A DNA stretch of 64,000 nt from Microvirga terricola (GTDB taxonomy: Bacteria; Pseudomonadota; Alphaproteobacteria; Rhizobiales; Beijerinckiaceae), in assembly GCF_011777495.1 (NCBI RefSeq), contig NZ_JAATJS010000001.1:1-64000 (forward strand), given 5' to 3'. This document shows positions 38,348 through 62,209 of the stretch, piece by piece. Numbering within the stretch: position 1 is the stretch's first letter; each line of letters starts with the position of its first letter. The notes under the pieces were generated by a model that was not told the origin of the DNA, made no database searches, and was given only the letters and a program-made list of their open reading frames with translations. A program made the position numbers and the translations under genes.

Positions 38348-39205
38348 TCACCCTTTCAGACCCGCGAGCATCACGCCGCGAACGATGTAGCGCTGGAGGA
38401 GAAGAAAGACGATCAGGGTCGGAATCGTCGCAATGCTCGCTCCGGTCATGATCATTTCCCATTGAATAGCCTGCTCGACAGCAAAGCTCGAAAGGCCGAC
38501 AGGCAGGGTATAGAGATCGCGACTGTTCGTGACGATGAGTGGCCAGAAGAATGCCGTCCAATTGCCCAGGAAAGTGAAGATCGCGAGTGCCGAGATTGCT
38601 GGCGTGACGAGCGGCATCGCGACGCGCCACCAGATCGTGAATTCATTCAACCCATCGACGCGGCCGGCTTCGAGGAACTCATCCGGTACCGTCTCGAAGA
38701 ACTGTTTCATAAGGAATGTGCCGAAGGCCGTCATCATACCGGGGAACATGATGCCCCAATAGGTATCGACCCATCCGAAGTTGCTCGCCATCAAGTACCA
38801 GGGAATGACCAGCATTTCCGTCGGGATCATCAGGGTCGAGAGAATGGCGATGAAGACGATGTAACGCCCTCTGAAATTAAACTTCGCGAGCGTATAGCCG
38901 ACGAGCGAGTCAAAAAAGACGTTTGAGACGGTAACGCAAACAGCAACGAACAGCGAGTTCAGGAACCAGCGCAAGAAGCGTCCATCGGACAGCACGGCTA
39001 CATAGTTGTCCAGGGAGGGTGCTTCCGGGATCAGGCGCAGGTCATAGACCTGAGACGCATCCTTTAGCGAGGTTGAAAGCATGAAGAGGATGGGCGTCAT
39101 CATCACGACGCCACCCAGGAAGAGCAACGTCCAGATAATGATGCGCCCGGGGCGGATCGACCGGCGCGCGACTGGGTTTTCTAAAGCGGCGACATTCATA
39201 GTCAT
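38348..39205 (-). CDS. Carbohydrate ABC transporter permease (UgpE-like)
   Basis: 285 residues, six membrane helices, coupling motif EAGRVDGLNEFTIWWRVAMP typical of CUT1 transporters. ATG 39205 lies two bases after the stop of the partner permease and has AAGGATC upstream; the longer open frame to 39727 overlaps that permease and is rejected. Confidence 0.92.
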   Translation of the reverse strand: MTMNVAALENPVARRSIRPGRIIIWTLLFLGGVVMMTPILFMLSTSLKDASQVYDLRLIPEAPSLDNYVAVLSDGRFLRWFLNSLFVAVCVTVSNVFFDSLVGYTLAKFNFRGRYIVFIAILSTLMIPTEMLVIPWYLMASNFGWVDTYWGIMFPGMMTAFGTFLMKQFFETVPDEFLEAGRVDGLNEFTIWWRVAMPLVTPAISALAIFTFLGNWTAFFWPLIVTNSRDLYTLPVGLSSFAVEQAIQWEMIMTGASIATIPTLIVFLLLQRYIVRGVMLAGLKG

Positions 39206-49394: not shown

Positions 49395-49408
49395 TTGATT
49401 ATCATCAA
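49395..49408. promoter_or_regulatory. Perfect FNR/FixK box between divergent genes
   Basis: TTGATTATCATCAA matches all ten defined bases of TTGAT-N4-ATCAA. Its centre is 79 bases before the phosphoribosyltransferase start, fitting activation at -41.5 with a leader of about 38 bases. It may also serve the divergent COG2187 gene. Confidence 0.85.
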
Positions 49409-58003: not shown

Positions 58004-58141
58004 TCACTCAGCAGCAAGAAAAAGCAGCGTGCCGCCGAGGCAATATCCCGTTGCACGGATCTCTTGTCCCGGCACGATGGCCTGACTGGCTCTGATCGCG
58101 TCCATGAGCCCATCCGACCCGATGGCTCGATGCTGCGGCAT
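58004..58141 (-). pseudogene. Fragment of a polyhydroxyalkanoate synthase (PhaC-like)
   Basis: A 45-codon open frame whose C-terminal part reads EIRATGYCLGGTLLFLAAE, the lipase-box region (GYCLGGT, nucleophile Cys) of class I/II PHA synthases, preceded by a helix like the one expected there (GLMDAIRASQAIVPG). An intact enzyme has over 500 residues; a stop codon stands just upstream in frame and TGA follows. Not expected to be active; probably a remnant of a lost phaC-like gene beside the phasin-like gene. Confidence 0.6.
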
Positions 58142-60488: not shown

Positions 60489-60701
60489 TTACTCGTCCGC
60501 AGGCTCAAGTGCGAAGGATATTTTCGCGTTGATGCGATAGACCCGAATTGAATCTTCGGAGACCGCAGCCTCGAAATTCTCGATGTAGATCGAGCGGATA
60601 TTGCGAACAGACTGCGACGCAATCTTGACGGCTCGACGGGCTGCTTCTTCCCAGCTCTGATCGGATTCGGCCAGCACCTCAATCACCTTGATCAGCGTCA
60701 T
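60489..60701 (-). CDS. Dodecin (flavin-storage protein)
   Basis: 70 residues; the whole protein matches dodecin (LIKVIEVLAESDQSWEEAAR, RNIRSIYIENFEAAV, YRINAKISFALE). Dodecins form hollow dodecamers that bind riboflavin-type ligands and protect against photochemical damage. ATG 60701 has AGGAGGGAAATC before it; the longer frame to 60737 is not needed. A perfect FNR box is 60 bases upstream, so synthesis in low oxygen is likely. Confidence 0.93.
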   Translation of the reverse strand: MTLIKVIEVLAESDQSWEEAARRAVKIASQSVRNIRSIYIENFEAAVSEDSIRVYRINAKISFALEPADE

Positions 60702-60768: not shown

Positions 60769-60828
60769 TCGCGCAACGCCATGATCGTTGGAGGTAAGCC
60801 CCTCGCTCGTTTCCTTCCCGAAGGATGG

Positions 60829-61233
60829 TCAACGCCTCTCCGCAGATGCGGTGTACATGGCGGGTCGCACGGAAACGATCTGGAAAGTGTGAAGCTTCTC
60901 TTCATCATCCTGGATCGAGACGTACTCACCGGGCACAATATGATGCTGATTGAGACGCTAGCCCGCCTCATCGTCCGCTGTGCGATCAGGATCGTAGTCG
61001 ATCATCCAGGTCGCTCCGCCTGCGCCGCCAGGGCGGTGAACAAGCATTCCGAGCCGGTCCGTCTCGTCCGCCCAGAAGCGCCTGACCCAGCAGCGGGTTC
61101 GCGCAGCCTTCCATTCGCCCGGGTCGAGAAGGCCGGTACCGTCGAGAGGAGCGATCATCTCGTAGCCATGCTGGGCACTTCCCTCCGGATAATCCGCAGA
61201 GCGTGCGAGATGCAGGGTGATATGGTGCAGCAC
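60829..61233 (-). pseudogene. Conserved small protein gene interrupted by an in-frame amber codon
   Basis: From GTG 61233 (GGAGGAAAC just upstream) the frame codes 91 residues (MLHHITLHLARSADYPEGSA ... MIDYDPDRTADDEAG) and meets TAG at 60958-60960. The same frame then continues without further stops for 43 codons to TGA at 60829-60831, including PGEYVSIQDDEEKLHTFQIVSV, which fits the C-terminus I recall for related alphaproteobacterial hypotheticals (DDE..[FY]R ... PGEYVSI ... HTF.V.SV). A single base change of a Tyr codon would give this stop. Either a recent pseudogene, a read-through gene, or a sequencing error. An FNR box lies upstream. Function of the family unknown. Confidence 0.65.
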
Positions 61234-61299
61234 GTTTCCTCCAAAGCCAATCGGTTGAGCTTGACTTGATCAAGCTTAAGGACGTGCGGCCTAGCCGCC

Positions 61300-61313
61300 T
61301 TGATCTTGGTCAA
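61300..61313 (-). promoter_or_regulatory. FNR/FixK box before the amber-interrupted gene
   Basis: TTGATCTTGGTCAA, 9 of 10 defined bases. Centre 73 bases before GTG 61233. Confidence 0.75.
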
Positions 61314-61384: not shown

Positions 61385-61427
61385 GCGGCCGTGAGGGTGG
61401 GATATGGCCCCCCACCCTCACGGCCGC
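61385..61427 (-). terminator. Strong hairpin, probable transcription terminator after the SDR gene
   Basis: A perfect 17-base-pair stem (61385-61401 with 61411-61427) closing a nine-base loop, five bases after the SDR stop codon. There is no T run on either side, so it is either a terminator needing no U-tract or an mRNA 3'-end stabiliser. Confidence 0.6.
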
Positions 61428-61432
61428 TTCAA

Positions 61433-62209
61433 TCAGGTGCAGGAGATTTGGCCGCCATCGACGCGCAGAATCGAGCCGGTCACGAAGGAAGCCTTCTCGC
61501 TAGCGAGGAAAACGGCCGCCGCCCCGAATTCCTCAATCTCGCCATAACGGCCGGCGGGGATCCCCGCACGGGCGGCAGCGGCAACATCTTCGATGGAACG
61601 GCCTGTGCGCTCGGCATTGGCGGCATCGAGCTGCTTGAGCCGGTCGGTTGCGATCCGTCCTGGGGCAATGGCATTGACCGTTACACCCGACGAGGCAACC
61701 TCGCTCGCCAATGTCTTGCCCCACCCGACAAGCGCCGGGCGGATCGCGTTCGAGATGGCGAGGTTCGGGATGGGTTGGATGACGCCCGATGAAATCACTG
61801 AGATGATGCGGCCAAACTTGCGCTCGATCATGCCCGGCAGCAGGTGATCGGCCAGTCGCACGAGATTGACGAACATCGCGTCAAACGAGGTGCGCCATTG
61901 CTCGCTCGCAACGCCCTGTGCTTTGCCGGGCGGCGGGCCGCCGCTGTTGAGGACCAGGATATCGACACCGCCGAGCGCGCTCACCGCATCCTTGGCGAGA
62001 GCATCGATCTGCTCGCTTTTGCCGGTGTCGCAGATGAGGGGGATCGCGCCTCGGCCGATCTTGTCGGCTGCGGCCTTGGATCCCTCCATGGCGCGGCTGG
62101 CAATGGCGACGCGGGCTCCCTCCTCGACCAAGCCTTGCGCTATGCCGAAGCCAAGCCCCTTGCTCGCGCCGAGAACAAGCGCACGCTTTCCGTCCAAACC
62201 TGTCTTCAT
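61433..62209 (-). CDS. SDR-family oxidoreductase with non-classical catalytic site
   Basis: 258 residues, Rossmann fold with GASKGLGFGIA in place of the strict TGxxxGxG, NSGG and a Ser in ISVISSG. The usual YxxxK is replaced by S-NAI-R (NLAISNAIRPALVGWGKTLA), as in the 'BKR-like' SDR subgroup lacking a perfect tetrad. The C-terminus GSILRVDGGQISCT is normal. Probably NAD(P)-dependent, but activity and substrate are uncertain. Nine bases separate it from the DapA-type gene upstream on the same strand, so they form an operon. Confidence 0.85.
   Translation of the reverse strand: MKTGLDGKRALVLGASKGLGFGIAQGLVEEGARVAIASRAMEGSKAAADKIGRGAIPLICDTGKSEQIDALAKDAVSALGGVDILVLNSGGPPPGKAQGVASEQWRTSFDAMFVNLVRLADHLLPGMIERKFGRIISVISSGVIQPIPNLAISNAIRPALVGWGKTLASEVASSGVTVNAIAPGRIATDRLKQLDAANAERTGRSIEDVAAAARAGIPAGRYGEIEEFGAAAVFLASEKASFVTGSILRVDGGQISCT

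Follow-up and report, generated by a model that had tools for sequence, protein, structure and literature searches.

A small conserved gene on the minus strand of the window (the whole 64,000-nucleotide stretch of Microvirga terricola DNA analysed here) is interrupted by an in-frame TAG, and the simplest reading, which we hold with good confidence, is that of a nonsense pseudogene of recent origin, in a locus that is eroding and probably under low-oxygen control. A point change would have turned a conserved tyrosine codon into TAG, and the gene affected would encode an uncharacterised, mainly beta-stranded protein of roughly 134 residues, with an FNR-type box upstream. Translation would most likely end after 91 residues, and the 91-residue product, lacking the final strands that the structure model predicts, would probably be non-functional or degraded.

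The premature stop and the surrounding gene

In the minus-strand frame that begins at 61233, 91 codons (60961..61233, with a GTG start at 61233-61231) precede the TAG at 60958..60960. Past the TAG the frame stays open for 42 sense codons, or 43 counting the original TGA at 60829-60831, and this 3' tail occupies 60829..60957; the coordinates and the codon count given in the first-pass annotation were thus confirmed. Its statement that the control signals are still in place was also correct: on the same strand, a GGAGG ribosome-binding site lies at 61238..61242 and an FNR/FixK-type box, TTGACCAAGATCAA, at 61300..61313, 80 bases upstream of the start of the gene. The annotation had further called the gene otherwise intact, which holds for the gene and its control signals but not for the locus, from which the downstream cytochrome c gene has been deleted.

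The homologs of the small gene share its start position. In the closest relative, G012, identity was 74% over 134 residues and the homology was unbroken across the stop, and a profile of 19 intact homologs showed that the tail after the TAG is conserved within the protein family, in line with the earlier description of a conserved gene with a conserved C-terminal part. Because the match to intact proteins runs through the TAG without a break, a chance open frame was ruled out. In the genome itself the small gene gave a single match at E <= 0.001, and no second intact copy was found.

The residue at the stop site in relatives

We searched 61 genomes, including that of M. terricola, with the 91-residue part. 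It was matched in 43 of the 61 genomes and in 31 of the 36 that belong to the same genus; the five same-genus genomes in which no match was found were G002, G004, G005, G011 and G016. Relative loci were fetched for 29 of the matches (28 from the same genus and one from the same order; other match rows were left out), and all 29 read across the site with Tyr at the stop position, which is column 92 of the family. A single base separates TAG from the Tyr codons of these relatives, as had been proposed.

When the profile built from the 19 intact homologs was run against 297 genomes of the order, 135 gave a match. In the deduplicated wider set, besides the stop of M. terricola itself, column 92 held Tyr in 52 rows, Phe in six and His in two (n = 60), so that the aromatic residue expected there was present, as Tyr or Phe, in 58 of 60. 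Three deduplicated rows without column 92 were left out of the 60; they are broken copies, namely a second copy in G003 and the 5' halves of frameshift-split copies. One internal stop was reported for each of nine other profile-match rows; in eight it proved to be the natural C-terminal end, at model position 126, and in the remaining row (G113) the aligned positions contain no stop. None of the relatives checked has a stop at column 92, and the TAG is private to the M. terricola genome among these sequences. Homologs that naturally end at this column, which would have spoken against a broken gene, were not seen among the intact rows.

Family and predicted fold

Pfam and NCBIfam contained no family for the small protein, and two weak NCBIfam tail matches were far below the cut-offs. 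A sequence search of the PDB returned a single marginal match, to a glutathione transferase (E 0.0011); the other hits were mostly maltose-binding-protein constructs. The structure model of the intact homologs is mainly beta (pLDDT 83, pTM 0.78), and its predicted strands 104-108 and 114-124 fall after the stop. Foldseek found nothing at E <= 0.001 for this model. A second structure comparison yielded lipocalin-like and other barrels with Z of 5.9 or less, which may reflect only a common arrangement; these weak barrel-like matches cover model residues 1 to about 121.

Loss of the cytochrome c partner and other neighbours

The gene order is shared with G012 from the universal stress proteins through the dodecin gene (60489..60698, minus; Pfam PF07311) and the small gene, of which G012 carries a syntenic intact copy, to the upstream dehydrogenase gene (61433..62209, minus). 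The dodecin gene, downstream, and the dehydrogenase gene, which is 93% identical in G012 and presumably of the SDR type, are both intact neighbours. Just downstream of the SDR-type gene, at 61385-61427, there is a perfect 17-base inverted repeat that resembles a terminator.

Compared with G012, the window lacks the cytochrome c gene (Pfam PF00034) downstream of the small gene. Its site, which in the syntenic G012 holds a gene of 105 codons, is marked by a scar at 60769..60828 (minus), and the cytochrome c of G012 had no match anywhere in the M. terricola assembly. Also missing from the window are most of a gene that we take to be phaC, a presumed alcohol dehydrogenase and a presumably chromate-transporter-like gene. 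At 58010-58117 (minus), between a response regulator and a LOG-like gene, we noticed a 36-residue PHA synthase-like remnant with a GYCLGG motif, where G012 has a gene of 633 codons.

In 28 of the 29 relative loci the small gene is followed by a cytochrome c gene, most often only a few bases further downstream, and in locus L008 at a distance of about 167 bases. Locus L010, from genome G019, has an intact homolog of the small gene without a neighbouring cytochrome c, and in the order-level loci L037 and L038 no match to the cytochrome c was found, so that loss of the partner alone need not make the small gene useless. Genomes G004 and G005 keep the cytochrome c without the small gene, and G002 and G016 have neither. 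In the second copy of G003 a stop at column 80 is followed by apparently unrelated sequence, and in M. lupini Lut6 (G027) the small gene and the cytochrome c are both frameshifted (L039:6001-6709, on the same contig as L087). Because five of the 36 same-genus genomes lack the small gene and G003 and G027 hold broken copies, the pair is, as judged from these genomes, dispensable and often lost in the genus. The pair itself, with its FNR box, recurs in Microvirga (L085:7964-8705 and its relatives); one gene encodes the small protein, which is uncharacterised, and the other a small cytochrome c.

FNR-type boxes

The pattern TTGA-N6-TCAA is that of an FNR/FixK site. Of the 29 relative loci, 27 have such a box at a distance of 67-104 bases upstream from the start, and the relative loci contain 37 of these boxes over 94,220 bases in all. 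The FNR-type box of the small gene suggests that it is probably under low-oxygen control. The window has five of these boxes, at 49395, 54148, 59088, 60755 and 61300, and four of the five fall within 54-61.4 kb, near a universal stress protein gene, the dodecin gene and the small gene; judging by the motif, the boxes could possibly form an FNR/FixK-type regulon cluster. Several universal stress proteins of Bradyrhizobium diazoefficiens are reported among its low-oxygen-regulated genes (PMC6515984). By analogy these data would fit the neighbourhood, but they show nothing for the small gene itself.

Constraint on the tail and age of the stop

Selection was followed with a codon model of 18 sequences, in which 91 codons before the stop and 30 after it were scored. 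The background omega was about 0.08 both before and after the stop, and a tail that is neutral on the whole M. terricola branch cost about 13.5 log units relative to a model with no branch difference. A likelihood profile limited the neutral share of this branch to at most about 8% for the tail (30 codons scored) and to at most about 3% for the 91 codons before the stop; only the length of the M. terricola branch was refitted, and the limit was taken at 1.92 log units and read between grid points. The "free" codon model saturated this branch (length 12), and its likelihood-ratio tests were set aside in favour of the profile. One omega suits the tail and the remainder of the gene alike, and the intact sister branch gave a nearly identical tail limit. 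As far as its codons tell, nothing sets the tail apart from that of a functioning gene, and over 30 codons the trace of a young stop would look no different from no stop at all.

Since the tail is not measurably relaxed over these 30 codons, the stop is either young or read through, and from the constraint that remains we infer that it is young; the codon-model limit thus bears out the claim of a recent break. The tail holds six columns that are invariant in the 19 homologs, and at one of them the M. terricola gene departs (F99 to I); the 30 invariant columns that precede the stop are all unchanged. As two of 12 further intact loci also depart once each at these invariant columns, F99 to I is only a weak sign of decay.

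Other stops in the region and alternative explanations

To see whether other genes nearby are broken too, we aligned 77 ORFs from the syntenic 80 kb of G012 with 84 kb of the M. terricola contig. In-frame stops were scored in the longest ORFs, a procedure that leaves out a real gene when it lies opposite a chosen shadow frame. There was no match for 13 of the 77 ORFs, and a stop occurred in ten alignments: one is the antisense of the small gene, three carry the stop upstream of where the gene probably starts, in over-extended N-termini, and the remaining six are shadow frames that face open genes. At 38760 another in-frame TAG falls on a Tyr position; it was rejected because it lies in a shadow frame opposite an open gene that is presumably transporter-permease-like.

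The codons before and after the stop both resemble an intact gene, and only one base separates the TAG from the Tyr codons of the relatives, as could be the case with an assembly or sequencing error, or with a polymorphism confined to the sequenced strain, so that in the species the gene would be intact. The assembly looks good, however (16 contigs, 99.98% complete), base errors seem rare, given that the other nine stop-containing alignments include no genuine broken gene, and the deletion of the partner gene alongside is not a base-call error; we regard this explanation as unlikely. The strong constraint on the 91 codons along the M. terricola branch would also suit a truncated protein that functions alone, the stop being a tolerated C-terminal shortening, but a young stop accounts for this constraint equally well. 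The part that would be shed contains the six invariant columns and the two last predicted strands, the weak barrel-like matches extend well into it, and not one intact relative examined ends at the site, so that a functional short form appears very improbable.

The conserved frame and constraint of the tail would also be expected if a suppressor or near-cognate tRNA decoded the TAG and the full-length protein were made, as the first-pass annotation had suggested as one possibility; what we found about decoding speaks against it. No CUA anticodon occurs among the 43 tRNA genes found in the genome, although the set seems to be incomplete, perhaps because rRNA operons are unassembled: tRNA-Ile(GAT) and tRNA-Ala(TGC) are absent from the 43. 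RF1 is present (491 bits), and the only match to PylS reached 21.7 bits against a cut-off of 178.15, and on these grounds amber suppression by such a tRNA and a pyrrolysine system were rejected. Among the 46 ORFs of the 84 kb stretch that aligned to G012 with 60% identity or more and no internal stop, 12 end in TAG, and ten of these 12 have no further codon past the aligned end. TAG is therefore an ordinary stop in this genome, and its reassignment was dismissed, as TAG terminates neighbouring genes at homologous ends and RF1 is present. With no relative checked sharing the stop, we consider read-through highly unlikely, and the same slight chance is given to a version in which decoding of the amber codon is efficient enough to be useful, the strain makes both the 91- and the 134-residue form, and selection on the tail continues.

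We therefore favour a recent nonsense pseudogene. The locus has also lost the cytochrome c partner and other neighbours, and the stop thus fits ongoing gene loss. Against this reading, apart from the stop and F99 to I the sequence shows hardly any trace of lost function; both the loss of function of the small gene and the order of the stop relative to the deletion of the partner are points that we infer.

Comparison with known systems

The M. terricola copy has the same length, start, invariant columns, FNR-type box and position as the intact members of its family, and differs from them in the premature TAG and in the absence of the cytochrome c gene that is usual in Microvirga. With stop-codon read-through and amber recoding, a known class of systems, it has in common that conserved sequence continues in frame after an amber codon, but here the stop is unshared by the relatives checked, no suppressor tRNA was found and TAG is an ordinary terminator. 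Recent nonsense pseudogenes in bacteria, such as those measured in mealybug endosymbionts (PMC13345370), are alike in that a disrupted gene keeps its control signals; the small gene has a single in-frame stop and a recognisable tail and lies next to deletions. In contrast to the massively decayed genomes of those endosymbionts, only one gene of a Microvirga genome is concerned here. The portions of the literature consulted on Microvirga pseudogenes, pseudogene read-through and recent pseudogenes contained nothing on the small gene.

What looked like a possible recoding signal is thus most likely an ordinary case of recent gene loss. As a by-product, the analysis brought out a small, widespread and uncharacterised gene with an FNR-type box, which in Microvirga usually stands beside a small cytochrome c gene and has repeatedly been lost or broken within the genus.
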